A stretch of DNA of 64,000 nucleotides, from NCBI RefSeq assembly GCF_002005225.1, contig NZ_CP019724.1, positions 4,729,501 to 4,793,500 on the forward strand, in the 5' to 3' direction. This stretch comes from Streptomyces pactum. Lineage in GTDB: Bacteria > Actinomycetota > Actinomycetes > Streptomycetales > Streptomycetaceae. The position numbers and the translations under genes were made by a program. Below the pieces are notes generated by a model that saw nothing but the letters and a program-made list of their open reading frames with translations, was not told the origin of the DNA and searched no databases. How positions within the stretch are numbered: position 1 is the first letter of the stretch; the number at the start of each line of letters is the position of its first letter. Positions 23,966 through 38,032 of the stretch are shown piece by piece.

Positions 23966-24727
23966 ATGGCCGACGCACCGTACAAGCTGATCCTCCTCCG
24001 CCACGGCGAGAGCGAGTGGAACGAGAAGAACCTGTTCACCGGCTGGGTGGACGTCAACCTCACCCCGAAGGGCGAGAAGGAGGCGACGCGCGGCGGCGAG
24101 CTGCTCAAGGACGCCGGCCTGCTGCCCGACGTGGTCCACACGTCCGTCCAGAAGCGCGCGATCCGCACGGCCCAGCTCGCGCTGGAGGCCGCCGACCGCC
24201 ACTGGATCCCCGTCCACCGCCACTGGCGGCTGAACGAGCGCCACTACGGCGCCCTCCAGGGCAAGGACAAGGCCCAGACCCTCGCCGAGTTCGGCGAGGA
24301 GCAGTTCATGCTGTGGCGCCGCTCCTACGACACCCCGCCCCCCGCGCTGGACCGCGACGCCGAGTACTCCCAGTTCTCCGACCCGCGTTACGCGATGCTC
24401 CCGCCGGAGCTGCGCCCCCAGACGGAGTGCCTCAAGGACGTCGTCGTCCGGATGCTCCCGTACTGGTTCGACGCGATCGTCCCCGACCTCCTCACCGGCC
24501 GCACGGTCCTGGTCGCGGCGCACGGCAACTCGCTCCGCGCCCTGGTCAAGCACCTCGACGGCGTCTCCGACGCCGACATCGCGGGCCTGAACATCCCGAC
24601 CGGCATCCCGCTCTCCTACGAACTGGACGCCGAGTTCAAGCCGCAGAACCCGGGCGGAACCTACCTGGACCCGGACGCGGCCGCGGCGGCGATCGAGGCC
24701 GTGAAAAACCAGGGCAAGAAGAAGTAG
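23966..24727 (+). CDS. gpmA: 2,3-bisphosphoglycerate-dependent phosphoglycerate mutase
   Basis: A 253-residue glycolytic enzyme. It interconverts 2- and 3-phosphoglycerate in the cytoplasm. The catalytic phosphohistidine is in [12 protein letters not shown] (His near residue 13) and the second histidine in [16 protein letters not shown] (about 186), with the [11 protein letters not shown] loop between. The length matches the dPGM family. In mycobacteria the same gene (gpm1) lies between mshA and senX3-regX3, and that block is visible here as mshA, gpmA and phoR-phoP, but with 13 kb between gpmA and phoU. The last codons (QGKKK) form one half of an 18-base repeat. Confidence 0.95.
24709..24726. 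repeat. left copy of 18-bp direct repeat (gpmA 3' end), possible att site
   Basis: CCAGGGCAAGAAGAAGTA covers the last gpmA codons including most of the stop codon. An exact second copy is at 28320-28337. Integration into the 3' end of a housekeeping gene produces such repeats. Confidence 0.5.
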
Positions 24728-24740
24728 GCGTCCACGAATG

Positions 24741-24780
24741 AGCCCCCTACCTGCGGTTTCTCCGCCGGGAGGGGGCTTTT
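24741..24780 (+). terminator. gpmA terminator
   Basis: AGCCCCCT (24741-24748) pairs with AGGGGGCT (24770-24777), followed by TTTT. It is a rho-independent terminator just after the gpmA stop. Confidence 0.75.
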
Positions 24781-24862
24781 CGGTGCACCGGGGCCGTCGT
24801 GGGGCCGTCGATGGTACGTCCGCTCGCTAAACAGCAGGCTGACGCCTTGGTGCCCTCCTATG

Positions 24863-25012
24863 TCACCTCCTTGATTGATGACCGACGGAAACCTGATCTG
24901 GACCGCTGGAGTGGTCGACGCTGGCTACCTGCTTTGCTCGGATCGGCCGCATGATCCAGGCGGCCATGACGGCCCCCACTGCGCCGATCACAGCCGCGAC
25001 TACCTCAGACAC
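24863..25012 (-). CDS. possible small membrane peptide
   Basis: GTG at 25012 opens a 49-residue frame starting SEVVAAVIGAVGAVMAAW after the initiator, a single hydrophobic helix followed by a basic end (MRPIRAKQ). A G-run (GGGGGG) lies 5 to 10 bases before the GTG. A longer frame from 25132 adds a Cys-containing part of doubtful reality. Short single-helix peptides of this kind are frequent in actinobacterial islands. No function is known and it may not be a gene. Confidence 0.35.
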   Translation of the reverse strand: MSEVVAAVIGAVGAVMAAWIMRPIRAKQVASVDHSSGPDQVSVGHQSRR

Positions 25013-25249
25013 GGAACCCCCCTGTGGAGTGGTATGCGGTATTGCGCCCGGAAAGCAGCGTGCCTCCTCCGTCATACAGTCCGCAACTATGGCAAATCCC
25101 AAGGTTCCGCAGCCCAGAGCCACTTCATTCAAGTCGCTACGGAAGGACGCTTCCGTACGGGCTCAACCAGACTTTCCGCTTACCTCTGGTCGACGGAACC
25201 GGCAGCGTGGTGAAGGCCGGTGGGGGTCCAGCGAGGCACACGCTCGCCT

Positions 25250-25880
25250 GGTCGGTCGGCACCCGCCGTCGGTGGTGGCCGAGGGCCGCCGGGTCATCGG
25301 CAACATCACCCGGGTCGCGACCCTGTTCCTGGTGAAGACCGTGTACTCGGTGCTGCTGGCGATCCTGGTGGTCTGCTCGCAGGTCGAGTACCCGTTCCTG
25401 CCCCGGCACCTCACGCTGCTCTCCACGCTCACCATCGGCGTCCCGGCCTTCTTCCTCGCCCTCGCCCCGAACAAGGAGCGGGCCAAGCCGCACTTCGTAC
25501 GGCGCGTGATGCGGTACGCGGTCCCGGGCGGGGCGGTGGCCGGGGTGGCGACCTTCGCGACGTACCTCCTCGCCCGGCAGCACTACGTGGGTCCGGGGGC
25601 GCTGGACGCGGAGACGAGCGCGGCGACGCTGACGCTGTTCCTGATCTCGATGTGGGTGCTGGCGATCGTCGCCCGCCCCTACACCTGGTGGCGGGTGGTG
25701 CTGGTGGCGGCGATGGGCGCGGCCTTCCTGGTGGTGCTGGTGGTGCCGTGGCTCCAGGACTTCTTCGCGCTGAAGCTGGTGGGCGTGACGATGCCGTGGA
25801 CCGCCGTCGGCATCGCGGCGGTGGCGGCGACCGTGCTGGAACTTCTGTGGAGGTGGGTCGACCGCCGCGTACCGGCCTAG
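25250..25880 (+). pseudogene. C-terminal remnant of a cation-transporting P-type ATPase
   Basis: About 205 residues remain, starting near PPSVVAEGRRVIGNITRV and ending in six hydrophobic helices (for example VKTVYSVLLAILVVCSQ, LTLLSTLTIGVPAFFLALAP, TLTLFLISMWVLAIV). This corresponds to the membrane end of a CtpE-like ATPase of about 800 residues. The phosphorylation (DKTGT) and ATP-binding parts are missing. The sequence before 25250 in the same frame has no ATPase similarity, so the 5' end has been lost by insertion or deletion. It lies inside the stretch bounded by the 18-bp repeats. Confidence 0.72.
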
Positions 25881-25948
25881 CCGGAGGGCCGGGCGGTTCC
25901 GGCGCGGGGAGGACACCCGGTCCGAAAAGCGTGAGCATTCCGGCGCCA

Positions 25949-25988
25949 AGTGTCCTCGCGGCGCTCATCTGAGCGTACGGAGGACACT
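25949..25988. other. nested hairpin downstream of the ATPase remnant
   Basis: AGTGTCCTC (25949-25957) pairs with GAGGACACT (25980-25988), and inside it CGCTCA (25962-25967) pairs with TGAGCG (25970-25975). It could be a terminator for the remnant or a recombination-related structure. There is no T-run. Confidence 0.4.
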
Positions 25989-26104
25989 CGGCCGCCAAGT
26001 GCTCACGTCCGCGACGAAGGCCCTAGTACTCCAGTCGCAGTTCGCTATCGCCGCTGGTCAGAGCCGATTTTCTGAGTGTACTCGGCTGATGCTCCGTCAG
26101 CTTG

Positions 26105-26735
26105 CGGGAGCTCGTGACCTCGGGTGCGGCGGCGGTAGTGGCAGCGTCTGGCGATGGCCTGGTGGCGCCTGCGCCAGTGGGACCAGCTCATCGCGTGGCC
26201 GGTGCGCCAGCAGTGTGTCGGCGATGAGCGGCCAACTGCCAGGAGTCGCCGGATTTCTGCCACGGTGAGCGGTTCGAGAACGCCGGAACCGTTTCTGCCG
26301 CCCCGTTACCGTTTTCGTGGCCTCGCAAGGAGGCTCCCGGCCTTCGGCCTCGGTATGACTTGAGCCCCCCTTTTCGGCCGCCGCTGACGCTATGGCGGCG
26401 AGAAAGGCGTGAGCGAGCATGGCCAGGGTGATGTGCCGGTACCACCCCGGATACCGGCGGACCTCGTACTGGTCGAGGCCGCACTCGTTCTTCGCGGCCT
26501 GGAAGGCTTCCTCGATCGCCCAGCGAGTCCCGGCGACGCGCACGAGTTCGGCAACGGCGGTGCCGTTGGGCGCGTAGGCGAGGTAGTAGGCGATCTCTCC
26601 CGGGCGGGCCAGGCTGCGGCGGGCCAGGACCCAGCGCTGATGGGTGGGCTGATCGCCGTCGAAGTCGTCGATGGCGGGCAGTTGGGCCGCGGCCCAGTCG
26701 TAGACGCGCGGGCCTTTCGCGCCGTTGCCAAGGAT
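26105..26735 (-). pseudogene. decayed IS701-type transposase (C-terminal part)
   Basis: Reading leftward from about 26735, one frame gives GAKGPRVYDWAAAQLPAIDD, then IAYYLAYAPNGTA and VAGTRWAIEEAFQAAKNECG, all typical of the C-terminal half of IS701-family DDE transposases, with the catalytic Glu in WAIEEAFQ. Near 26300 the reading frame shifts, and the conserved end (TVAEIRRLL, then HWRRRHQAIARRCHYRR) lies in another frame, so the gene is broken. The N-terminal half is absent. Sequences around 26025 (CTAGTACTCCAG) and 26742-26750 are of a type often seen at Streptomyces IS ends, but I could not define termini. Confidence 0.7.
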
Positions 26736-27369
26736 CAGTCCAGGTACTCAGGCGCATTACGAGTGAACCAACGGCCGAGTAGGCATGGCTCACGCCGGCA
26801 GCGGTTTCCCGGCCGTGAGTCAGGTGGCGTTGGCGGAGGCGGGTGAAGGCGGTGGGTCTGGGGCGGTGCGGGAGAAACCTTTTGATCCGCTGCGCACATT
26901 CACGTGGGCTAGCCGTGTTGGTGTCGCACTCCAGGTCGTAGTCACCGTGACCGTGGACCAGGTCGTACTGGTGCGCCGCAAGGCCCGGCGGGCGATCGCC
27001 TCGGGCCAGTTCGCGGCGGGCCAGCTCGTCCAACGGGCAGTGAACACCGACGAATAGCACGTCCTCGGGCCGCAGCACGGCCAGGCAGTCGAGCAGCCGC
27101 CACGGCTCGCTCAGCACATGGTCAACCACGATGTCGTTGCCCGACTCCGCCATGGCCGCGATCGAGCTGTGGAAACCCAGCCTGGTCCGCCGCAGCGCGG
27201 CATCGAGCTCCTCCGCCCCGAGCTCCCGCTTGCTGCGCATCGCGTTGAAGCCGTCGACCGCCATGTGGAAGAAGACACCATCGTCCAGGATGCCCAGAAG
27301 CTCACTGGCGATGCTCGACTTCCCTGAACTGGAGGTGCCGTTGAGGAAGATGATCCGACCAAATGCCAT
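26188..27369 (-). CDS. chloramphenicol-phosphotransferase-like kinase, 3' end altered by IS remnant
   Basis: ATG at 27369 opens a frame whose first 185 residues are a P-loop kinase close to the chloramphenicol 3-O-phosphotransferase family: Walker A in IIFLNGTSSSGKSS (about residues 5-18), the catalytic Asp in FFHMAVDGFN, DIVVDHVLSE, and FVGVHCPLDELARRELARGD. That family is normally about 180 residues. Here the frame has no stop and runs on for about 200 more residues through the IS701 remnant in a frame that is not the transposase's own, so the tail is read-through, probably after an insertion removed the natural stop. The kinase core may still work. The substrate is unknown; these enzymes act on small hydroxylated compounds. 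Confidence 0.6.
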   Translation of the reverse strand: MAFGRIIFLNGTSSSGKSSIASELLGILDDGVFFHMAVDGFNAMRSKRELGAEELDAALRRTRLGFHSSIAAMAESGNDIVVDHVLSEPWRLLDCLAVLRPEDVLFVGVHCPLDELARRELARGDRPPGLAAHQYDLVHGHGDYDLECDTNTASPRECAQRIKRFLPHRPRPTAFTRLRQRHLTHGRETAAGVSHAYSAVGSLVMRLSTWTDPWQRRERPARLRLGRGPTARHRRLRRRSAHPSALGPGPPQPGPPGRDRLLPRLRAQRHRRCRTRARRRDSLGDRGSLPGREERVRPRPVRGPPVSGVVPAHHPGHARSRLSRRHSVSGGRKGGLKSYRGRRPGASLRGHENGNGAAETVPAFSNRSPWQKSGDSWQLAAHRRHTAGAPATR

Positions 27370-27618
27370 ATCGGCATGATCACACGTTGCCGCCGCCGCG
27401 CTCAGGAGATTGCCAGCAAATCTCGGCGACCAGCGGGGTTCGCAAGAGACCCGGTCCGAACACGGATTGTGATCGAGTGGGTGGGACCTGGTGCGGAGAC
27501 GGCTGCGGCCACCGGTGATCACCGTGAGGTGTGTGGACTGACGATGAAGCGGTGGGCGCAGGCGTAGCGCGGCGACCAGTAGCCTGCGACGATCAGCCGT
27601 CGCGCGCCTGGAGGTGCC

Positions 27619-28164
27619 GTGGAAGCTACTGCTCTCGTCAGTCCCGACCACTTGTGGTCGGCGCAGGAGGTCCTGGTTCGTTCGAGCCCTGTCCCGGCGG
27701 CGGCAGGGGTCTACGGGTGGCACTTCGAGCAGCCGCCCCACCCCGACCTGAAGGCCGGGCGCCTGCTGTACGTCGGTATAGCTCCGCGGTACATGGCGAA
27801 CCGGACCAGCACCCAGAACCTGCGCAAGCGGGTGCGCTACCACTACCGGGGCAACGCGGCCGGCTCGACCTTGCGGCTCACCCTCGGCTGTCTGCTCGGA
27901 CTTGAGTTGCGCCGCGTGGGCAGCGGCAAGCGGATGACCTTCGGCAAGGCTGGTGAAGCCACCCTGAGTCAGTGGATGGCGGACAATGCGCGGGCGTGCT
28001 GGATCGAGCAGAGCGAACCGTGGGACCTGGAGTCACAGCTCATCTCCCAACTCGACCTTCCGCTGAACCTCGACCAGAACCGCCACAATGCGTTCCACAG
28101 TCGCCTGAAGGAGTTACGGGCCCAAGCGCGCCAACGGGCGCGGGAGTTGCCTATCAGCTCGTAG
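27619..28164 (+). CDS. GIY-YIG nuclease-like protein with TTA codon
   Basis: A 181-residue protein. VYGWHFEQ and LLYVGIAPRYMA match the GVYxWxF and YVGxA strands of the GIY-YIG fold (about residues 36-58), followed by NLRKRVRYHYRG with the Arg expected on the second helix. DLESQLISQLDLPLNLDQNRH contains the Glu at the metal site. The GTG at 27619 has GGAGGT three to eight bases upstream. It contains the rare codon TTA at 28114-28116, so full translation should depend on the bldA tRNA. It stands alone near the right end of the island. It may be a nuclease or DNA-modifying defence-type protein; the function is not known. Confidence 0.62.
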   Translation: MEATALVSPDHLWSAQEVLVRSSPVPAAAGVYGWHFEQPPHPDLKAGRLLYVGIAPRYMANRTSTQNLRKRVRYHYRGNAAGSTLRLTLGCLLGLELRRVGSGKRMTFGKAGEATLSQWMADNARACWIEQSEPWDLESQLISQLDLPLNLDQNRHNAFHSRLKELRAQARQRARELPISS

Positions 28165-28319
28165 GTCACCGAACGAGTCGTCGGGCCATTGCCTGGGCCG
28201 TCCCTGGGTCGTCCGAGGTCACTCAGCAGTGGCCGACAACGACCAATGCGACCGCTGGGCCGCCCACGAGCACCGTCCTGACCAGCGAGAACCCAGCTCC
28301 CCAAGATCCCCGACAACAC

Positions 28320-28337
28320 CCAGGGCAAGAAGAAGTA
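28320..28337. repeat. right copy of 18-bp direct repeat, possible att site
   Basis: Exact copy of 24709-24726. The in-frame reading just before it ends in QGKKK-stop as gpmA does, but the residues before that differ. It is followed by its own terminator, in the same order as after gpmA. Confidence 0.5.
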
Positions 28338-28351
28338 AGCCCACAGCATCG

Positions 28352-28388
28352 AGCCCCCGCGCCGTGGCTACCTCGCAGCGCGGGGGCT
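28352..28388 (+). terminator. hairpin terminator after the right repeat
   Basis: AGCCCCCGCGC (28352-28362) pairs perfectly with GCGCGGGGGCT (28378-28388), followed by TTA. It resembles the gpmA terminator at 24741 in position and core and may be a displaced native gpmA terminator. Confidence 0.6.
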
Positions 28389-28442
28389 TACTGGTGGGCC
28401 CGGGCAGCCTCCTGGGCCGGTGGCTGGACGATCAGGCCGTGC

Positions 28443-28937
28443 TCAGGACGGCCAGGCATCGGCCATTTCGAAGGAGACGGCCGTTCCTCCGAGGTGGCTG
28501 GGCCCGGCGTGCCACGAGTGAGCGATGGAATCGACCAGGAGCAGCCCGCGCCCGTGCGCGTCGTCGGCGTCGGGGTGCCTCAGCCGGACGCTCCCCGGGA
28601 GCCCCGGGTTGTGCACTTCGACCCGGAGGGAAGTCCCCTCGCGGAACCACTCCACCCGGACGACCCAGGGCTCGTCCGACTTGCCATGGACGACGGCGTT
28701 CGTGATCAACTCCGAGAGCATCAGGAGGCAGTCGTCGACCGAGCAGGCCGGATAGTAGGGAGTGATGAGCTTCCGGAACCAGCGCCGTGCCCGAGGAACG
28801 GACTCCGCGACAGGGTGCAAGGTCATCGCGCCGAGGCGCGGTGCGTCCTCGCAGGGGTAGCGGTCGATGGTGTAGGCCACCCTGAACTCACTCCCCGCCG
28901 CTGTCGTCGCAGTGGAGACAACGCCGCATTCGACCAC
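28443..28937 (-). CDS. HATPase_c ATP-binding protein, anti-sigma (RsbW-like)
   Basis: A 164-residue protein of the GHKL ATPase class found in large numbers in Streptomyces. The N box is LMLSELITNAVVHG (about residues 85-98), followed by WVVRVEW and HNPGLPG, then the G box region DADDAHGRGLLLVDSIAHSW. The regulatory domains and histidine of true histidine kinases are missing. Such proteins bind sigma or anti-anti-sigma factors or are orphan. The start is the GTG at 28937. It lies divergent from the GntR gene, separated by a region with the TCTAGA sites. Confidence 0.75.
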   Translation of the reverse strand: MVECGVVSTATTAAGSEFRVAYTIDRYPCEDAPRLGAMTLHPVAESVPRARRWFRKLITPYYPACSVDDCLLMLSELITNAVVHGKSDEPWVVRVEWFREGTSLRVEVHNPGLPGSVRLRHPDADDAHGRGLLLVDSIAHSWHAGPSHLGGTAVSFEMADAWPS

Positions 28938-29073
28938 GGCACTTGCCTTTGTCTGCGCTGACCAGCGCCGGCCTCGACGGTCTCACCACGGAAACCACAG
29001 CAGGAGAAGGCCCCATCCCGGACGACGCCATACAGCACCCCTCACCCTCAGGCCGAAGGCCACGACTCAGCCT

Positions 29074-29193
29074 CTCTAGACATCTAGGTTCCCGGGTTGT
29101 CTCTAGAGATGTCAAGGTGGGTGAGCGGACCCCCGGCATCGCGACTACATGCAGCGAGCGAACACCCGACCTGTGGCCTAAGGTGTCTAGAGA
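29074..29193. promoter_or_regulatory. three TCTAGA-centred operator-like sites
   Basis: CTCTAGACATC (29074-29084), GTCTCTAGAGATGTC (29099-29113; TCTCTAGAGA is a perfect palindrome) and GTGTCTAGAGA (29183-29193). The last lies just upstream of the GntR ribosome site (AAGGGGAG). They are candidate binding sites for the GntR protein in the control region shared with the ATPase gene. Confidence 0.55.
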
Positions 29194-29211
29194 AGGAAGG
29201 GGAGCTACGGG

Positions 29212-29970
29212 ATGGCCCACACCGAAGACGACCGTCGGCCCAAGTACCAGCGGATCGCGGAAGCCCTGCGCGAGGCGATCCAGTCGGGCGAGTACGGTCC
29301 TGGTGATCGGCTGCCGGGGGAGAACGACCTCATGGCCACGTACGGCGTGGCCCGCATGACGGCACGCCAGGCCTTGAGCGTCCTGCGGGACGAAGGTGTC
29401 GTCGAAGCACGCAAGGGCGCCGGCGTGTTCGTCCGGGAGTTCCGTCCGCTACGGCGCCGAGGCATCCAGCGCCTGGCCCGACAGCAGTGGGGTAACGGCC
29501 GTTCCGTCTGGGCGGCGGACGTCGAGGACCGCTCACTCGAGGTGGACCACGTCACGGTGTCCGAGGAAGCCGCGTCCGACCACGTCAGCGGGGTTCTGGA
29601 GCTGGCCGGCGAGGAGACGGTGTGCGTGCGGCGCCGACGCTTCGTACTGGACGGCAAGCCAGTCCTGCTCGCGACGAGTTACCTGCCCGTGTCACTGGTC
29701 GCCGGGTCCCCGATCGTCCGGGAGGACACCGGACCGGGTGGCACGTACGCCAGGCTCGCCGAACTCGGCTGCAAACCGGTGCACTTCCGCGAAGAGATCC
29801 GCTCACGTATGCCGTCGAAGGACGAGGCCACACAGTTGAGCATCTCCGCGGGCACCCCGGTCATCCTCATCTGCCGCACCGCGTTTACGGACGAAGGCCG
29901 CCCCGTCGAGTTCAACGAGATGACGCTGGACGCCGCCTCGTACATCCTGGAGTACGACTTCGACGCGTGA
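29212..29970 (+). CDS. GntR/HutC-family regulator with UTRA domain
   Basis: A 252-residue protein. Residues 8-75 are a GntR winged helix (YQRIAEALREAIQSGEYGPG, then LMATYGVARMTARQALSVL). The rest is a UTRA ligand domain with FVLDGKPVLLATSYLP, GPGGTYARLAELG and a closing FNEMTLDAASYILEYDF. This subtype is frequent in Streptomyces integrative elements and their relatives, where it represses transfer genes, and it is also found alone. Its own upstream region contains three TCTAGA sites. The ATG at 29212 has a good ribosome site. No transfer genes are nearby, so the target is unclear. Confidence 0.82.
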   Translation: MAHTEDDRRPKYQRIAEALREAIQSGEYGPGDRLPGENDLMATYGVARMTARQALSVLRDEGVVEARKGAGVFVREFRPLRRRGIQRLARQQWGNGRSVWAADVEDRSLEVDHVTVSEEAASDHVSGVLELAGEETVCVRRRRFVLDGKPVLLATSYLPVSLVAGSPIVREDTGPGGTYARLAELGCKPVHFREEIRSRMPSKDEATQLSISAGTPVILICRTAFTDEGRPVEFNEMTLDAASYILEYDFDA

Positions 29971-30173
29971 GTCCAGAACACGTGGGGGGCGATGGGCTCC
30001 ACGGGCGGTTCATGCGGTTCACTTCGGAGCGAATCTGTATGACCATGGCCGCCAGGGTCGTGCTTCGACGGGCAGGTCCACAGACTGCCCCCGGCCCGCC
30101 GGATGGTTGCGGGCCGTGATCACTCGCCCCGGAGCGGCTCCGGCCCGAAGCCGCTCCACTGGACGCGGGTGTG

Positions 30174-30776
30174 TCAGAGGAGGTCTCGCCAGAAAGGGGC
30201 CGTCGCTCGCGGCTTCCAGTGGGCGTCGACCTCGCCCCGCACCTCGTCGAACTCCTTGTGCAGGTAGTCGACCAGGTCCAGCCCGTAATAGATGATGTCG
30301 GTCTGCCACATCGAGAGCACCGGATGCCCGAAGTGTCCCCGGCCGGCGGGCAGGTACCGGTGGGCATACACGGGGACGAGTACCGGTGCCTCCGCAAGGT
30401 GATGCCGTGCCGTGCCCAGCGCGGTCGCCGCGTCGGCCGGACGCTCGCCCCAGCCCTCGTACCAGAACCCGTTGTGCTCGACGTCGAGCAGGACGCCCTC
30501 GACCGGCCAGTCGAGCTGTCGCCGCCAACTGTCCCGGTCACCGTCGCGCCACTCCGGCCACGGCCTCGACCAGGTCTGGCCGTCCTCGGGAGGGGTGTTG
30601 ACCGGTAGGCCGGCCGCGAGGAACGCCCGGTGATCGTCCGCGAACTCGAAGCCGTACTCGCGCTCGATGCGCGTGAACTCGGCGTCCGTCAGCCCCGGTT
30701 CGAACTCGTACAGACCTGACCGCGCCAGGCGACGCGCGGCCTCCGTACCCAGGCGGGTTCCCTCACTGTTGATCAC
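30174..30776 (-). CDS. SMI1/KNR4 (SUKH)-like protein
   Basis: A 200-residue protein. LTDAEFTRIEREYGFEFADDHRAFLAAGLP (residues 28-57, as landmark) is the typical start of the SUKH fold, followed by Trp-rich segments (WPEWRD, WPVEGVLLDVEHNGFWYEGW) and a C-terminal end with SMWQTDIIYYG. SUKH proteins include toxin immunity proteins, but many are lone housekeeping or phage-related genes. There is no toxin gene beside it in the window. The GTG at 30776 is the start. It is divergent from the large ATPase-glycosyltransferase gene, with a 250-base gap between the two starts. Confidence 0.65.
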   Translation of the reverse strand: MINSEGTRLGTEAARRLARSGLYEFEPGLTDAEFTRIEREYGFEFADDHRAFLAAGLPVNTPPEDGQTWSRPWPEWRDGDRDSWRRQLDWPVEGVLLDVEHNGFWYEGWGERPADAATALGTARHHLAEAPVLVPVYAHRYLPAGRGHFGHPVLSMWQTDIIYYGLDLVDYLHKEFDEVRGEVDAHWKPRATAPFWRDLL

Positions 30777-31028
30777 AGCCGCACGCTAGCGCCGATCTGA
30801 GGTCTCCGTCATCCGAGTTGTGCGCGGCCTCCTTCGCGAGGTCCGTGCCGTGCAGCGCGGCGCACGGCCGCCGCCTCCTGCCGCTCCACCGGTCCCGCGT
30901 GTGTGCGGCGCATGCGTGCGGTGGGCGCGGCGGGCTGCCCCGGCCGGTCCCGCGGTGCCTGGAAAATGCCGCGGACAGGCCCTGGCGCACGCCGGAGATC
31001 GTACGATTGTCACGAGGTGAGGGGGCCC

Positions 31029-34000
31029 GTGGACATCTCGCAGGTACGCAATCCGTACGACTATCGGCACCCAGTACGCGATGCCGCACTCTTCGCCGGA
31101 CGGGGCGGAGAAGCGAAGGTCATCGAGGGCGAGCTGGACCAGGCGGCCGTCGGTGAGCCATCGGTCTGTGTCGTGCTGCACGGCCAGCGGGCCAGCGGGA
31201 AGACGAGCCTGCTCTACGCCGCCGAGCGGATGGCCGCCGAACGCGGACTGACCACGGTCCGAGTAGAACTGATCAAGGGTGAGGGCGAGCCGATCGCCTT
31301 CTTTCGCAAGGTTTACGACGAGTTGGTACCGGCGGTCCTGAAGGCAGTCGCCCAGAGCGGCAGGGACATCGCCTTCGACGCGGCGGCCGTGCGCCGCGTG
31401 ATGGCCGGAGCCGCTGAGGCCTCGACCGTGGCCCCACTGCAGTTCCCGGAGGCGCTGGCCCTCACCGGAGCCGATTCCCGCGTGCCGGAAGCCGCCCTTC
31501 GTGAGGATCTGTCCTTCTTCGTGCGGCTCCTCGGACATCCCATCGCGCTGTTCGTCGACGAGGCTCAGTTGATCGCAGACGACGAGCGCGCACTGGCGAT
31601 CCTCCGTTTCCTCACCACCCGTGTCGACGGGCTCGTGCTGGTGTTCGCCGGCACCTCTGAGCTGATCGAGCGGATCAAGGACGTGCAGGCGCCGATCCTC
31701 CGGCAGTTCAGGGAGATCGAGGTCAGGAGTTTCGTCGAGGACGTCGACATCGAAGACTGCGTGACGCGTCCGCTGGGCAGCGCCGGGATCTACGGCGGCT
31801 TGATCTCCGAGAACCTGGTGCCCTCCCTGAGACGGATCACTGACGGCAACCCCTACGCGATCCAGCTCTACTGCCACGAGATGTTCGCCCGCGTGAAGAA
31901 CGGTCTCGCGGACTACATGGACCTCAGTCCCGAGGTGCTCGAAGGCATCAGGTCACGCATGGAGATGGGCGACCGCAATGTCCTCGACCGGCCACTGATC
32001 CGTGCCGTACGTGCGATGAACCGGAGTGAGCTCATCGCCTTCAACGTCCTGACCTCGGCACTTGACCACGCGACGCCGGATGAGACCTGGTTCGCCTACT
32101 GCATGGGCGGGCAGCCGGAGATCACACGCGAGCAGTACGACCGGTGCAGGGAATCGCTCGTAGCGGATGGCCTCCTCGCCGACGACGTGCCCGTGCGTCT
32201 GGCCGGCGACGCGGACCTCTTCGACGAGGTCTACTGCCGGCTGTGGTCTGCGCGCACCCTCGGGTCGATGCCCCACGCGCAAGCCATCAGCCGGACCAGT
32301 GTCCGGGCCATGCTGATCAACCGGCTCTTCTGTGTGCTGCACGAGTTCGCGGATGGGCCGCTGCGGATCTATCCGACGTGTTGCCACCACATGGACGCGA
32401 AGCATTTGGAATCCAGCTTCGACGCTATGGACAAGCTGCCCGAGGCCGGCCCGGCCGCCGCTCTGCATGTTGACTACCTCCACTACGCGGTCCTCAACGC
32501 GGGCGAACCCCGAGCGCTCGATATCACCACTGTCACCTGCGCATACCGCGATCACGAAGTCGAGCGGTGGTTGTTCGCGGCGGACACGGACGACGTGCGC
32601 CTGTCCGACTCCGCGGACTTCAGGGCGGCCGCCGGGCGCATCGAGGCCCTCGGCGGTCGGCTCACCGCCGAGCGGGTGCGCGTACCACTGCGGACCTGGC
32701 CGGCCGAGAACTGGTTTTCGAAGGCCACAGGACGACTGCGCAGCAAACTCGCGGCCAACCATCGAACGGCCGCGTTCGCCGCGTACGTGGCCGGCGACAT
32801 GGCCCGCGCACGTGCCCGCTTCCAGTCGTCCTTCGAGCTGGACCCGGACTGGTCGGCAGCGAATTGTCTCATGTACCTGAACCTGGCCACGGGCCGTGAG
32901 GATGACGCGCTCGCCTGGTCGCGACGCGCGCTCGGGCTCACCGAGGATCCGTATGGTCGCGCGCTGTGCCACTACAACGCCGCCATGGCCCACTTCATCG
33001 GCGGCGACCGAGAGCAGGCCGCCGAGGAACTCTCGGTGGCCAGGGACGAGTTGGCTTCCATATCGCTGCAGAACGACCTGATCGACTTCTTGCTGCTTCC
33101 CGACCCCGACGGTGCGGTGATCCTGCATGAGGAGACTCAGGTCGACCTGGTCGACGCGGTGGCGCGGGCGAGCGCCGTACTTCGCATCCCTGCTCAGGCG
33201 TCGTCGAGCCGACAGGACGGCGCGGCCGACACGGGCGAGGACGGCCGGGGGAAGGCCGGGCCGGAGGAGGAGGTCGCACAGAAGCGTGCCGATCGTGACG
33301 GGGCGGAGCACTCGGAGGAAGGCCCGGTCGTCCTCTCCGTGGCCACCGAATGGGCGTCTTCGCAGGGCGGTCTGAGTACGTTCAACCGTGACCTGTGCCA
33401 GGCGCTGGCCGCGGCCGGCGCCCGGGTCTTCTGCGTCGTACTGGAGGCGAGCACCGCGGAGGCGGAAGCCGCCGGAGCGAACGGCGTTTCGCTGCTTCCG
33501 GCGCCTGACCGGCCCGGGGCTTCCGAGGACATGCGACTGACCAGTCGGCCTGAGCTACCCGACGGTGTGGCGCCCGACCTGGTCCTGGGGCACGGCCGGA
33601 TCACCGGTCCCGCGGCACAGAAACTGGCCGAGGACTTCTTCCCCGAAGCCCGGCGCCTGCACTTCCTCCACATGTCTCCGGACGAGATCGAGTGGTACAA
33701 GCTCGACCGGTCTCACGACGCCGGGCTTCGGGCCGAGAACCGCACGGCAATCGAGCGGACCCTGGGCAGGACCGCTCATCGCGTGGTGGCGGTGGGCCCT
33801 CGGCTGCACCAGGAGTTCCTCAGCGACTTCAGGACCGCGCACGGGCTGCCACCACTGCGGCTGGATCCCGGGTTCGACAGCGCGGTGCCCGATGGCGACC
33901 GTGTGCCGCCTGAGGGAGGCCCTGCTCGGGTACTGCTGCTGGGCCGGGTCGAAGACGCCCAGCTCAAGGGTCTCGACCTCGCCGCCGTGGCCTGTGGCAA

Positions 34001-34523
34001 GGTCGAGGCGCGGTTGCGTGACGCCGGCATCCGGCGCGGTGTACGGCTACTGGTGCGCGGTGCGCCCGTGACCGACGTGAACGCGGCCCGCGACGAGCTG
34101 GTGAAGCAGGCCGCGAATCCGCGACTTGACGTCGTGGTACGGGTCTACACCTCAGAGCGAGATCGCATCGAGGACGACCTGAACACCGCGTGGCTGGTGA
34201 TCATGCCGTCCCGCAGGGAGGGATTCGGGCTGACCGGCCTCGAAGCGATCATCCGCGGGATCCCAGTGCTGGTCAGCTCTACGAGCGGGTTGGGCGAGTT
34301 GCTGCGTGAGGAGCTGGGGGACGAACAGGCCAGTTCGTTCGTCGTCGAGGTGTCGGGTGACACCGAGACGGATGCGGAGACCTGGGCCCGTGACATCGAA
34401 CGCAAGCTGCGCGACCGGATCGGTGCGTTCCAGCAGGCGGCCCAGCTCCGCGACGATCTCGCCCGGCGGGTGCGCTGGGAGCACGCCGCTGCCGCGGTCC
34501 TCGGCGAGATCTCGCCGCAGTAG
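31029..34523 (+). CDS. AAA/STAND ATPase - TPR - glycosyltransferase fusion
   Basis: A 1164-residue protein. Residues 1-330 are an ORC/STAND-like ATPase with Walker A GQRASGKTS (52-60), Walker B IALFVDEAQLI (about 172-182) and a sensor segment LVLVFAGTSELIERI. Residues 330-570 have no recognised match. Residues 578-690 are TPR-like (FAAYVAGDMARARARFQSSF). After an acidic low-complexity linker (715-765), residues 767-1164 form a GT-B/GT4 glycosyltransferase: GGLSTFNRDLCQAL, LLLGRVED and the E-x7-E region MPSRREGFGLTGLEAIIRG (about 1060). The GTG at 31029 follows GAGGTGAGG. A nucleotide switch joined to a sugar-transfer domain suggests a conditional effector, for example in host-phage conflict. 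This is inference from architecture; no function is established. Its stop lies 6 bases from the end of a convergent membrane gene. Confidence 0.6.
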   Translation: MDISQVRNPYDYRHPVRDAALFAGRGGEAKVIEGELDQAAVGEPSVCVVLHGQRASGKTSLLYAAERMAAERGLTTVRVELIKGEGEPIAFFRKVYDELVPAVLKAVAQSGRDIAFDAAAVRRVMAGAAEASTVAPLQFPEALALTGADSRVPEAALREDLSFFVRLLGHPIALFVDEAQLIADDERALAILRFLTTRVDGLVLVFAGTSELIERIKDVQAPILRQFREIEVRSFVEDVDIEDCVTRPLGSAGIYGGLISENLVPSLRRITDGNPYAIQLYCHEMFARVKNGLADYMDLSPEVLEGIRSRMEMGDRNVLDRPLIRAVRAMNRSELIAFNVLTSALDHATPDETWFAYCMGGQPEITREQYDRCRESLVADGLLADDVPVRLAGDADLFDEVYCRLWSARTLGSMPHAQAISRTSVRAMLINRLFCVLHEFADGPLRIYPTCCHHMDAKHLESSFDAMDKLPEAGPAAALHVDYLHYAVLNAGEPRALDITTVTCAYRDHEVERWLFAADTDDVRLSDSADFRAAAGRIEALGGRLTAERVRVPLRTWPAENWFSKATGRLRSKLAANHRTAAFAAYVAGDMARARARFQSSFELDPDWSAANCLMYLNLATGREDDALAWSRRALGLTEDPYGRALCHYNAAMAHFIGGDREQAAEELSVARDELASISLQNDLIDFLLLPDPDGAVILHEETQVDLVDAVARASAVLRIPAQASSSRQDGAADTGEDGRGKAGPEEEVAQKRADRDGAEHSEEGPVVLSVATEWASSQGGLSTFNRDLCQALAAAGARVFCVVLEASTAEAEAAGANGVSLLPAPDRPGASEDMRLTSRPELPDGVAPDLVLGHGRITGPAAQKLAEDFFPEARRLHFLHMSPDEIEWYKLDRSHDAGLRAENRTAIERTLGRTAHRVVAVGPRLHQEFLSDFRTAHGLPPLRLDPGFDSAVPDGDRVPPEGGPARVLLLGRVEDAQLKGLDLAAVACGKVEARLRDAGIRRGVRLLVRGAPVTDVNAARDELVKQAANPRLDVVVRVYTSERDRIEDDLNTAWLVIMPSRREGFGLTGLEAIIRGIPVLVSSTSGLGELLREELGDEQASSFVVEVSGDTETDAETWARDIERKLRDRIGAFQQAAQLRDDLARRVRWEHAAAAVLGEISPQ

Positions 34524-34529
34524 GTCGCC

Positions 34530-35234
34530 TCACTGCGCGAACGCGGCGGCGGACACGTCCCGTTCCAGTGCCGCGCGATGGTGGTCGTAGGTGCCGATGC
34601 CGGAGACCTTGATGAGTATGCAGAACCGTTGGACGGAGGATATCTGTTCGGCCACCCGCGTGAACTCACGCCGTAGGAAGTGGATGGCGGCGAGATTCGC
34701 CGTGGAGCTCTGCCCGCAGACGAGGAACACCGGATTGCCCGACTCCTCAGGGACGAACTTCGCGACGAGCACGTACTCCTGGTTACCCCGGTCGAACAGG
34801 TACTTCTCGCCCCCGACTTCGATGGCGACCGAGTACGGGTTCGTGGCGTCGTACGGATGAACCGTGACACCGGGAAGATGAGCGGCCAGGTGCCCGCCTG
34901 TGCGTAGGTTGGAGCCTCCCGCCGGGCCGCCCACGCAGAACTCGGTGCGATCGCCGTTGCTGCCACGGAAGTCCCCTGACTCGATGAGGACATCACAGCC
35001 GAGCTCGCCCGCGAGCAGGGCCAGGCCCATCGCGGCCCGGATGTCCCGATAGGTCGCGGTCCCGGGGGAGTTGTACTTGTTTCCCAGCACCACCAGGCAC
35101 GTCTGCCCAGGCCGAACACCGAAGAACCCCGCCCTCTTGTTCACCTCCCGGGTTCGCTTGGCCCGCTCCCACAGCCACACGAGCCCGCCACCGAGCAGGC
35201 TTGTCACCAGGCCGATGGCGATGTTCTCAAGCAC
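34530..35234 (-). CDS. membrane-anchored protein of unknown family
   Basis: A 234-residue protein from a GTG at 35234, which has GGGAGGGGAGGA upstream; longer starts (GTG at 35270 or 35381) are possible. One N-terminal helix, ENIAIGLVTSLLGGGLVWLW, is followed by a soluble domain with a strand-turn CLVVLGNKYNSPG, helices RDIRAAMGLALLAGELGCDVLIESGDF (landmark) and GGPAGGSNLRTGGHLA, and later VFLVCGQSSTANLAAIHFLRREF. The alternation looks like a nucleotide-binding alpha/beta fold but I cannot name it. It converges on the ATPase-glycosyltransferase gene, ends 6 bases away, and may belong to the same accessory unit. Confidence 0.55.
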   Translation of the reverse strand: MLENIAIGLVTSLLGGGLVWLWERAKRTREVNKRAGFFGVRPGQTCLVVLGNKYNSPGTATYRDIRAAMGLALLAGELGCDVLIESGDFRGSNGDRTEFCVGGPAGGSNLRTGGHLAAHLPGVTVHPYDATNPYSVAIEVGGEKYLFDRGNQEYVLVAKFVPEESGNPVFLVCGQSSTANLAAIHFLRREFTRVAEQISSVQRFCILIKVSGIGTYDHHRAALERDVSAAAFAQ

Positions 35235-35401
35235 CGATTGAATCGGGTCCTCCCCTCCCGCAGTGTCTACGCCCCACCATTGTCGTGGGTGGGCGGCGGC
35301 GAAGCGGACTGCTTTACCCGAAGTAAGCGGACCGGCCCCTCCGGAAGCGGACGCGGCTGTCAGTCGCCCGTGCCAGAACACCAGCGTGACCTTGAGGTCC
35401 T

Positions 35402-36127
35402 TCAGCGTTCTCGAAGCTCAGCGGTCTTCCGCGGATCGTCCGCCAGAATGCTGGCCGCAAGCTGCTGTACCTGCTCCTCCAGGGGCTGATCGCTGGTGAT
35501 GAACAATTCGTACGCGTAGGAACATGCACGCTCTCCCGGTGCCTGGACGTGGTGGAACTCGACATCGACCCCCTCGGGACTGGTGAGTTCTTTGGGGACG
35601 TCGGGCTCTTCGCGTCGTGGCCAGACGCCCGTGAGAACGCAGCCCCACCGCTCGAACCAGCCGCTGTCCGCAAGGGTCTGTCCGAGTAGCCGGGCAACGG
35701 TGTCTACCGGCTCTTCCCAGCCGCGGTCCGCCGCAGCCCGCGCGAGTTCGGCTTCGTACTGGTCGGCGTCGAAGGTGATGTCCGCGGGCAGGGCGGTGAT
35801 GTCGCTGGTGTTCTCCCAGGCGTCCCAGATCACCCGGTCGCCCTCGCGGCGCATGGTGACATACAGGGCGCCGCAGCAGCCGGCGGTGCAGGTCGGTTCG
35901 GTGATCATGATCCTGCGCGGTTCCCGCGTGACCGCCAGCGGCCAGTTTTCGGCCGGGCCTGTCCAGTGCCGGCAGCTGGGTGCCAGCCCTTCCGGGTGGA
36001 CTTCTCCCAGGGCGTCCACGCCGTCGATCAGAGGCCGCACCTCGGCCCAGGGGTCCGCCGCCCAGTCGTCCGGGATCCTGTGCCGCAAAGTCAACGTGCT
36101 GATCGTCAGCTGATCGGTCATGCTCAC
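35402..36127 (-). CDS. conserved hypothetical protein
   Basis: A 241-residue protein starting MSMTDQLTISTLTLRH; the second in-frame ATG at 36121 is an equally good start. Features: PTCTAGCCGALYVTM with clustered cysteines near residue 80, WDAWENTSDI, FDADQYEAELARAA, and a Pro/Glu-rich C-terminal part. Small proteins with a GCCGALY element and a following DAxxYEAEL helix occur in Streptomyces with no known role. The Cys cluster may bind metal. It is read toward the membrane gene at 34530, with 167 bases between. Confidence 0.55.
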   Translation of the reverse strand: MSMTDQLTISTLTLRHRIPDDWAADPWAEVRPLIDGVDALGEVHPEGLAPSCRHWTGPAENWPLAVTREPRRIMITEPTCTAGCCGALYVTMRREGDRVIWDAWENTSDITALPADITFDADQYEAELARAAADRGWEEPVDTVARLLGQTLADSGWFERWGCVLTGVWPRREEPDVPKELTSPEGVDVEFHHVQAPGERACSYAYELFITSDQPLEEQVQQLAASILADDPRKTAELRER

Positions 36128-36464
36128 ATGATCGGCTGATGCCGCGCAGCCGCATACTCATTTCCTGGGCGTGATCAGCCTCGGCTGGTCGTGCCAGGGC
36201 AGCCATCGTTCGTGATCGAGAAGCTTACCGAGCTCACCACGTGAGACATCCTCTAAGGGCCGCGCGGCCGGCGCTGACAGGTCTCTCCCTGGTCATCGAC
36301 TGAGCCCGACCGTCGGTTGGGTCCCGGACGGGATCTCCGGGCCGCCCCCGGACAGGACGGGGATGCAACCATTCCCTGCGGAGCTGGAACCCCCGGAAGC
36401 CGGCCGCGCGTTCGAGACTCTAACCGCGGGCACCGACAACCGGCCTGCCCGGGCCGGCGTCGTC
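36128..36464. other. intergenic stretch without detected gene
   Basis: I see no open frame with Streptomyces codon usage, no ribosome site and no RNA gene here. It marks the right margin of the accessory region, before the conserved genes around phoU. Confidence 0.6.
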
Positions 36465-36824
36465 TCAGCTCGCCGTCGTCAGACGCCCCCGGCGCTCCCG
36501 GTGGCCCCGCAGGGTTCGCCAGGCCGTGCCCAGGGCCAGTGACTGGACCAGGGCCGACAGCACGATGCCGCCGATGAGGAACCATGCCGGGGCGTCGCCG
36601 CCCCAGACCGACTCGCCGAGCCAGGCCACGAAGCCGAAGGCCGGGAAGGTGAACAGGGCAGGCCAGACCCAGATGAGGGACGCGTCCGGAGCGGTCGTGA
36701 AGAGGGGCTCCAGCGAGGCGACCGCCATCGCGCCGCCCACCAGGGCGAGGTACGCCGCCGAGGCGCGGTTGGCGAGGGTCAGGCGGGCGAGGGTGCGTAT
36801 CGGGCTGGTCCGGCCGGTGTTCAT
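36465..36824 (-). CDS. SCO4225-type small membrane protein
   Basis: A 119-residue membrane protein with three hydrophobic segments: AYLALVGGAMAVASL, LIWVWPALFTFPAFGFVAWLG and FLIGGIVLSALVQSLALG, with a basic end. It matches the type and place of the actinobacterial family named after SCO4225 (recognised from memory, not searched). The function is unknown. The ATG at 36824 is a natural start. The gene lies on the same strand as the Cys-rich peptide gene and phoU but is separated from them by 231 bases, so it is probably not in one operon. Confidence 0.65.
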   Translation of the reverse strand: MNTGRTSPIRTLARLTLANRASAAYLALVGGAMAVASLEPLFTTAPDASLIWVWPALFTFPAFGFVAWLGESVWGGDAPAWFLIGGIVLSALVQSLALGTAWRTLRGHRERRGRLTTAS

Positions 36825-37055
36825 CGGGTGGCGTCTCCCCTTGGTCGTCGTCCTGTGTCTCAGGGTCGGCCGGGGGCGGTGTCCCGGGCTTGAGTACCCG
36901 TACTCAGGTCGGACGACGCGGTACCCAGGGAAGGGCGGGGGAGGGCGGCCGTACGGTCAGCGAGACCCCGTGCCCGTACGGCGGCCGGGACCAACCGGCC
37001 GCCGTACTGCTGGCTACTGGTACTTCCACTGCTACCGCGCGCTGCCGGTGCCGCG

Positions 37056-37208
37056 TCAGCCGCACTGGCAGGGGTTGCCCGACTGGCAGCCGCAGCCGCA
37101 GCCCGATCCGCAGCCGCACGCGGCGATCAGGGGCAGGCTGCGGATCTCGGGGGGCTGCTCGGTGCGGTGTTCCCGGGTGGGGTCGGGGCTGGTGGGGGAA
37201 TCGGCCAT
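37056..37208 (-). CDS. 50-residue Cys-rich peptide (metallothionein-like)
   Basis: ATG at 37208 with AGGAGG 5-10 bases upstream opens a 50-residue frame. Residues 1-30 are polar (MADSPTSPDPTREHRTE), and the end is CGCGSGCGCGCQSGNPCQCG, seven cysteines in 20 residues. Repeated CxC pairs are typical of metal-thiolate proteins such as metallothioneins, but the peptide has no known family in my memory. A peptide this short with a near-perfect ribosome site and codon choice suggests a real gene. It ends 134 bases before phoU would be read, on the same strand, so it is downstream of phoU. Confidence 0.6.
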   Translation of the reverse strand: MADSPTSPDPTREHRTEQPPEIRSLPLIAACGCGSGCGCGCQSGNPCQCG

Positions 37209-37342
37209 GGTTCCTCCTAGAGGCTGGTGCCTGGGCCCATTGCACGCCCTCGGTGGCCGTCGCAGCAACGGCGCATTGAGGTGACCGCGCGCGCCCCCGG
37301 CCCGCTCCCGTCCCCGGCCGCCCCTGGCCGCCCAGGTCCGCG

Positions 37343-38032
37343 TCAGGCCCCCTCGACCTGCGTCGCCGGCTGGATGTCCGCCTGGAGGTCGCCCACGTGC
37401 TCGCCGGTGACCAGGTAGACCACGCGCTTGGCGACCGAGACGGCGTGGTCGGCGTAGCGCTCGTAGTAGCGGCCGAGGAGGGTGACGTCGACGGCCGTCT
37501 CGATGCCGTGCTTCCAGCGGTCGTCCATCAGGTGCTGGAAGAGGGTGCGGTGGAGCAGGTCCATCGCGTCGTCGTCCTGCTCGAGCTGGAGGGCCAGGTC
37601 GACGTCCTTGGTGATGATCACCTCGGCGGCCTTCGCCATCAGGCGCTGGGCGAGCTGGCCCATCTCCAGGATGGTCGCGTGCAGGTCGTGCGGCACCGCG
37701 CGCTCCGGGTAGCGCAGCCGGGCCAGTTTGGCCACGTGCTGGGCCAGGTCTCCCGAGCGCTCCAGGTCGGCCGACATCCGCAGCGAGGTGACGACGATGC
37801 GCAGGTCCGTCGCCACCGGCTGCTGCCGGGCCAGCAGGGCTATGGCCCGGGCCTCCAGCGCGTGGTGCAGCTCGTCGACCTTCTGGTCGCCCTCGATCAC
37901 GTTCTCGGCCAGCTTCAGGTCGGAGTCGAGGATCGCGGTCGTGGCGCGTCCGATCGCCGACCCGACCAGCCGGGCCATCTCCACCAGACCGTCGCCGATC
38001 GAATCCAGTTCCTCGTGGTACGCGTCCCGCAT
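37343..38032 (-). CDS. phoU: phosphate transport/regulatory protein PhoU
   Basis: A 229-residue protein of the PhoU family, two copies of a three-helix bundle with metal-binding E/D motifs (SAIGRATTAILDSDLK, then the second repeat with LAQRLMAKAAEVIITKD). PhoU dampens PhoR signalling and mediates phosphate control. It lies divergent from phoR-phoP, with a PHO box between them. That arrangement, not present in many other bacteria, is the Streptomyces pattern. Starts at the ATG at 38032. Confidence 0.92.
   Translation of the reverse strand: MRDAYHEELDSIGDGLVEMARLVGSAIGRATTAILDSDLKLAENVIEGDQKVDELHHALEARAIALLARQQPVATDLRIVVTSLRMSADLERSGDLAQHVAKLARLRYPERAVPHDLHATILEMGQLAQRLMAKAAEVIITKDVDLALQLEQDDDAMDLLHRTLFQHLMDDRWKHGIETAVDVTLLGRYYERYADHAVSVAKRVVYLVTGEHVGDLQADIQPATQVEGA

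Follow-up and report, generated by a model that had tools for sequence, protein, structure and literature searches.

An ATPase-TPR-GT4 protein in a variable island of Streptomyces pactum as a candidate NTP-switched glycosyltransferase conflict effector

What is the role of a bacterial protein that combines an ATPase, a tetratricopeptide repeat (TPR) region and a glycosyltransferase of family GT4? This question is raised by a 1164-residue chain encoded in a stretch of 64,000 nucleotides of the Streptomyces pactum genome (assembly GCF_002005225.1, contig NZ_CP019724.1, positions 4,729,501 to 4,793,500; hereafter the window). The first-pass annotation of the window described the chain as a three-part fusion with a complete GT4 domain and as a possible conflict effector switched by nucleoside triphosphates (NTP), with sugar transfer as a novel output. 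The fusion is borne out by our analysis, and we favor, with fair confidence and on sequence grounds, its interpretation as a one-chain NTP-switched glycosyltransferase conflict effector. This interpretation is the best fit to the Pfam family of the GT4 domain, which is named after conflict, to the patchy presence of the protein, to its location in a variable island and to the lack of a biosynthetic operon among the scanned neighboring genes; it is also based on the finding that caspase, TIR, CATRA and NACHT-like parts carry this GT4 domain as well. The claimed novelty of the output was wrong, because fusions of STAND NTPases with GT4 have already been predicted as counter-invader effectors (Kaur, Iyer, Burroughs and Aravind 2021, eLife 10:e70394); the available part of that paper describes a GT4 domain that is often C-terminal and suggests the modification of invader molecules.

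Domain architecture and conservation of the chain

The features of the locus are compiled in Table 1. The GTG start at position 31029 is well supported, since six other aligned proteins begin at the same residue. STAND NTPases are defined by Walker A and Walker B motifs and a helical or winged-helix extension with a GxP motif. The Walker A pattern of the window protein reads G52-x-R-x-x-G-K-T-S60 and its Walker B motif V176-D-E-A-Q180; both had been recognized in the first-pass annotation, and both are invariant in an alignment of seven proteins and in another of eight that includes one protein without GT4. The same is true for the GNP motif, which may correspond to the STAND GxP motif. The TPR-like part is weak in the single sequence (Pfam TPR_2, E 0.018) and clearer by profile, with a whole-sequence E of 2.7e-10 to a designed TPR protein and no individual stretch that is significant by itself. 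The TPR chains match profile positions 573-672, and the helices of the region have high confidence in the structure model.

The C-terminal domain matches PF20706 (“GT4-conflict”) with 487.5 bits (cut-off 26) and covers profile positions 1-384 of 385. The next-best glycosyltransferase models reach at most 44.3 bits in Pfam and 40.2 bits in NCBIfam, which leaves PF20706 ahead by more than 400 bits. Comparison of the GT4 profile with solved enzymes retrieved Tll1590 (6kih, E 2.1e-16) and MshA (3c48, E 3.9e-16) over almost the entire domain. The residues G780/G781, H881, R973, K980 and the E-x7-E pair E1064 and E1072, to which we assign catalytic roles, are invariant across 12 diverse GT4-conflict domains and align with those of MshA. 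Judged from its sequence, the domain carries the motif set expected of a competent retaining GT4 enzyme. The mean ratio of non-synonymous to synonymous substitutions (dN/dS), a simple Nei-Gojobori mean of 36 pairs of nine proteins, is 0.22-0.26 for the ATPase, 0.25-0.28 for GT4, 0.41 for the middle part and 0.44 for the TPR region, with a maximum in the linker, which is unconstrained (Table 1); positive selection was not indicated in this comparison. The ATPase and GT4 parts are conserved, and the middle/TPR portion, which is the likely recognition part, drifts faster.

Table 1. Features of the ATPase-TPR-GT4 locus and its island, in window coordinates
Feature	Position	Strand	Observation
ATPase-TPR-GT4 gene, 1164 aa	31029..34523	+	open frame, intact
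ORC/STAND-like ATPase core, residues 1-215, AAA_16	31029..31673	+	Pfam AAA_16 E 1.3e-9; dN/dS 0.22, lowest of the chain
Walker A, residues 52-60	31182..31208	+	G52, R54, G57, K58, T59 and S60 invariant
Walker B (VDEAQ), residues 176-180	31554..31568	+	invariant
GNP motif, residues 273-275, C-terminal to the ATPase	31845..31853	+	invariant
TPR region, about residues 571-685	32739..33083	+	profile match, model helices; identity 0.54, lowest among folded parts
Variable linker, residues 723-765	33195..33323	+	mean identity 20%; dN/dS 1.08; predicted local distance difference test score <50 at 723-763
GT4-conflict glycosyltransferase domain, residues 766-1164	33324..34520	+	PF20706 E 3.6e-146
Companion gene, 234 aa	34530..35234	-	stop 6 nt from GT4-gene stop, tail-to-tail
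Variable island	24728..37342	.	12.6 kb between histidine-phosphatase-superfamily gene and phoU
Flank: histidine-phosphatase-superfamily gene	23966..24727		
Flank: phoU	37343..38032		

Distribution of the chain, its modules and the companion gene

The wider distribution was drawn from genome and contig searches. The full ATPase-TPR-GT4 chain has a patchy occurrence and was recovered in eight of 294 other Streptomyces genomes (G126, G204, G069, G191, G147, G188, G046 and G090). PF20706 itself is present in 27 of 295 Streptomyces genomes including that of the window, and in four of 346 genomes across the phylum, three of which are again Streptomyces. The search that gave the full-chain homologues matched 263 of the 295 genomes, mostly through ordinary glycosyltransferases (23-36 bits among the matches listed), and was left uncounted in favor of the PF20706 search. 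No polysaccharide operon was found around the full-chain homologues among ten neighbors scanned at other loci and the MsrA-type gene of L036, and the sole sugar-handling gene is a GH43-ricin lectin at L157. The scanned neighbors vary by locus (GNAT, M48, M4, RNA polymerase alpha). A common block of flanking genes is limited to L036 and L038; it was partly scanned and looks like a single chromosomal place. In G069, the GT4 homologue has the RNA polymerase alpha-subunit-like gene (L033, 12744-13775, 343 aa) close to its 5' side, and the homologues in both L032 and L033 have nearby GntR-type genes of the same cluster as the GntR/UTRA regulator of the window.

Other N-terminal partners of the GT4-conflict domain are a caspase-ATPase (L039), PNP-caspase-NACHT (L040), a short AAA part (L041), TIR (L042, L045) and CATRA (L043, L044, L048). 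L042 has GTPase genes beside it, L043 has both CHAT and CATASP genes in its vicinity, and L046 has a CHAT gene nearby. The three CATRA loci represent a recurrent island: besides CATRA-GT4 and the companion described below, it contains CATASP, CHAT, small unnamed genes and an NB-ARC/TPR protein with a helix-turn-helix. A 5698-codon frame that encodes three GT4-conflict domains (G112:C610:9323-16942) resembles the giant secreted actinobacterial toxins named in the available part of Kaur et al. 2021 (eLife 70394).

A pattern-based scan of species genomes for the N-terminal ATPase-TPR module retrieved 23 loci. Sixteen of them are fused to GT4 (Streptomyces, Kitasatospora), a count that includes L156 and L161, the latter in two broken pieces. 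Six stop at the module end after 730-765 residues (three in Saccharopolyspora, one in Kutzneria, two in Streptomyces), the open frame of Lentzea L175 matches only residues 1-714, and a Saccharothrix plasmid provided one more stand-alone copy. At five of these eight stand-alone loci (L169, L172, L173, L176, L153) the module is followed by a convergent gene that overlaps its stop by 9-12 nt and encodes a pentapeptide-repeat protein with two hydrophobic stretches. The convergent gap between fused gene and companion is 3-136 nt (ten loci, one with a broken companion). A convergent 3' membrane-type protein thus recurs in both forms, and the kind of this neighbor and the presence of GT4 both change between them. 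A Halobaculum (archaeal) plasmid protein (L155, 4968-7517) combines a related ATPase (26% identity, residues 8-408) with many TPR repeats.

The unknown membrane protein that the first-pass annotation placed beside the fusion is indeed encoded there, and it is the companion gene of Table 1. Its start is uncertain, with a frame extending up to 35381. The protein consists of a long N-terminal helix, which is hydrophobic in relatives, and one alpha/beta domain; its own N-terminal segment is slightly below the hydropathy cut-off reached by four relatives. It belongs to an unnamed family: Pfam gave no match above the cut-off (sub-threshold EPSP_synthase E 0.039, PEPCK_GTP E 0.094), and NCBIfam, PADLOC and PHROGs gave none at E 0.01. 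The modeled fold resembles the flavodoxin-type domain of BcsB and the N-terminal domains of GH84/GH67/GH115 glycosidases. Sequence identity to these domains is 8-14% and the best Foldseek E 4.9e-3, the companion is devoid of a glycosidase domain, and the likeness to BcsB is one of fold only, as the Pfam BcsB model was unmatched up to E 0.1. The shared fold gives no function for the companion.

An 11-member companion profile matched 261 of 295 Streptomyces genomes and ten of 396 phylum genomes, all of them Streptomyces. Most of these matches represent a lower-scoring paralogue (about 160-195 bits among the matches listed), and nine of ten fetched paralogue loci share one family of neighboring genes; the one member of it that was scanned is a gamma-glutamyltranspeptidase. 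The genome of the window holds only the GT4-linked copy, without a second profile match up to E 10. Among the matches listed, 12 of the 21 close companions (>250 bits) are located within 10 kb of a GT4-conflict domain. Conversely, a companion lies within 10 kb of 12 of the 31 GT4-conflict domains, compared with about 0.005 pairs expected by even random placement. This expectation presupposes that the genomes are independent and the spacing even, and near-copies reduce the number of independent pairings among the 12. These pairings comprise STAND-TPR-GT4 (five), CATRA-GT4 (three, about 5 kb off), a CHAT gene or relative (two), TIR-GT4 (one) and a stand-alone GT4 (one). Specificity of the companion for GT4 was rejected, given that nine of the 21 close members lack a GT4 domain within that 10-kb distance; the neighbors of these lone copies share nothing obvious. 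In the companion tree (31 rows after removal of five duplicate loci and of short pieces; with a long-branch warning) the paralogue group forms one clade with a support of 100/100. The GT4 label requires six changes versus 10.6 in shuffles (4/500 as low), and lone copies are interspersed, one of them being the sister of the window's copy.

Proposed mechanism and competing explanations

As a conflict effector, the protein would be kept inactive by its ATPase module until a trigger is sensed by the TPR/middle region. On binding of ATP, it would then change its shape or assemble and so release the C-terminal GT4 enzyme, which may use a nucleotide-sugar to glycosylate a protein or some other component of the cell and thereby block the invader or halt the cell. 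The membrane-anchored companion, where present, probably acts on GT4 activity at the membrane, which it may place, supply or tune. A tentative and rather unlikely extension is that Streptomyces GT4-conflict enzymes often use a dedicated membrane-anchored partner as acceptor, docking site or decoy, and that GT4 and partner are exchanged as one 3'-end cassette. The partner would be a diverged relative of the protein that is common in the genus, beside gamma-glutamyltranspeptidase-type genes at the loci inspected, and the triggered glycosyltransferase would act at the membrane via this partner. The constant ATPase-TPR switch would carry GT4 plus companion in Streptomyces, and in Saccharopolyspora, Kutzneria and Saccharothrix a GT4-less switch would stand with the two-helix pentapeptide-repeat membrane protein.

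Several observations weigh against a conflict effector of this kind. The ATPase part reaches the Pfam cut-off with the general models AAA_16/AAA_22 only, which leave the STAND clade unsettled, and the PADLOC library of 2023 matched no family at E 0.01 for the ATPase-TPR-GT4 protein, the companion or the stand-alone module. The full-length structure model is poor, with a predicted template modeling score of 0.33 and weak beyond about residue 215. Two of the eight full-chain homologues are damaged, by an in-frame stop in G191 and by the loss of all but the beginning of GT4 in G090. The ATPase-TPR module stands without GT4 at eight of 24 loci, so that GT4 is dispensable for whatever the module does there. 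The companion is present at ten of 20 distinct fused loci and absent from the 16-20 kb examined at the other ten (the duplicate genomes L156, L161, L164, L168 and L171 entered once), and in G204 a companion with an in-frame stop adjoins an intact GT4 gene.

The absence of the companion from ten fused loci and its in-frame stop in G204 also speak against the idea that the companion is an antidote, which neutralizes the glycosyltransferase in the manner of a toxin-antitoxin pair. The tight tail-to-tail pairing at ten fused loci would suit an antidote, and the nine companions without a GT4 neighbor could be left-overs of such pairs. However, 11-16 kb around these nine lone copies contained no convincing GT4 remnant (best E 0.43), and the GT4 gene and companion of the window are convergent and therefore not part of one transcript; we regard an antidote as very unlikely. 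An enzyme for a polysaccharide, glycolipid or metabolite with a fused ATPase regulator is quite improbable as well. The closest solved GT4 enzymes include the metabolic MshA, GlgM, WaaG and PimA, and the GH43-ricin lectin gene at L157 is in line with sugar metabolism, but it is the single sugar-handling gene among scanned neighbors that differ from locus to locus, and the lead of PF20706 over all other glycosyltransferase models argues against a biosynthetic role.

The remaining alternative is a protein O-glycosyltransferase of ordinary regulation without an anti-invader role, comparable to O-GlcNAc transferase (OGT, family GT41), in which the TPR region picks the targets, the GT-B enzyme attaches the sugar and the ATPase tunes the activity for stress or development. 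O-GlcNAc transferases top the Foldseek list of the full-length model (5djs, E 1.0e-10), and TPR repeats precede a GT-B glycosyltransferase in both proteins. This match is built on two common parts of a low-confidence model with a root-mean-square deviation near 25 A, and patchy presence in a variable island is ill-suited to housekeeping. Moreover, the glycosyltransferase families are different, GT4 enzymes being retaining and OGT inverting, and we know of no ATPase in OGT. Taken together, we consider this explanation unlikely and retain the conflict effector as the preferred reading.

Island setting and relation to known systems

The variable region proposed in the first-pass annotation was recovered as an island (Table 1). 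All 11 relatives fetched have both flanks, and the spacing of these is 12.6 kb in the window versus 0.5-4.5 kb in the nine relatives with conserved order; in L143 and L145 the segment bearing the histidine-phosphatase gene is inverted. The called genes of the island and five further frames, including that of a chloramphenicol phosphotransferase-like (CPT) protein, had no match at this place in the 11 relatives, among which the L152 sequence was only 7.5 kb long. The G+C content is 0.665-0.69 throughout the island, compared with about 0.70-0.77 for most of the flanking sequence; no tRNA lies within 20000-42000, and a repeat pair clearly bordering the island was not found. No phage record matched, and none of eight matching plasmid records covers more than 80% of the query. 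Viral contigs contained one distant ATPase relative (28% identity, residues 3-413), no relatives of the companion, and 29 mostly short and weak loci with the GT4 profile.

Further genes of the island encode the CPT-domain protein (26188-27843, -, 551 aa, Pfam E 2.2e-49), a GIY-YIG catalytic-domain protein (27652-28164, +, GIY_YIG_2 E 5.1e-33) that overlaps the 5' end of the opposite-strand CPT frame, a small HATPase_c_2 protein (28443-28937, -, E 4.9e-11), a GntR/UTRA regulator (29212-29970, +) and, at the phoU edge, a small DUF7942 protein with a hydrophobic segment (36465-36824, -). The gene at 30174-30776, annotated initially as SUKH-like, had no Pfam match up to E 0.1, and that at 35402-36127 had no Pfam match. 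Genes were called by codon usage; the caller missed the CPT frame of the window, the N-terminal module gene of L175 and several core paralogues, and extra frame checks filled those gaps that bear on the counts.

Comparison with published conflict systems shows which elements are shared. The CATRA/caspase ternary systems with GT4 have the same GT4 domain and, in L043, L044 and L048, a companion about 5 kb from it, but no CATRA, CATASP, CHAT, caspase or MoxR-vWA match was found among the 16 window proteins scanned with Pfam (10 + 6). The nSTAND2 two-gene operon with GT4 or HEPN (eLife 70394) combines GT4 with a STAND-type module, as the window protein probably does. According to the available part of the paper, its GT4-bearing STAND module is eroded, whereas the motifs of the window protein are intact and no second ATPase gene is adjacent: the neighbors at 30174 and 34530 are located on the opposite strand and lack an ATPase match.

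The closest known equivalents, as far as the available part of Kaur et al. 2021 (eLife 70394) describes them, are the STAND NTPase-GT4 fusions. The window protein shares with them an NTPase module with a C-terminal GT4 domain of the same family PF20706, although its assignment to STAND is tentative, with the general AAA_16/AAA_22 models as its Pfam matches above the cut-off. It differs in the TPR/middle region in between, the existence of a GT4-less module form and the companion membrane gene, none of which is described there for STAND-GT4 proteins. That a bacterial immune-like protein switched by NTP may act through glycosylation is thus a published prediction, to which the locus adds a compact one-gene case with intact motifs. 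Beyond this already predicted kind of protein, our analysis contributes a GT4-less form with another membrane neighbor, a natural relative that separates the switch from the effector, and an unnamed family of companions, which as candidate partners could indicate the destination of the sugar.

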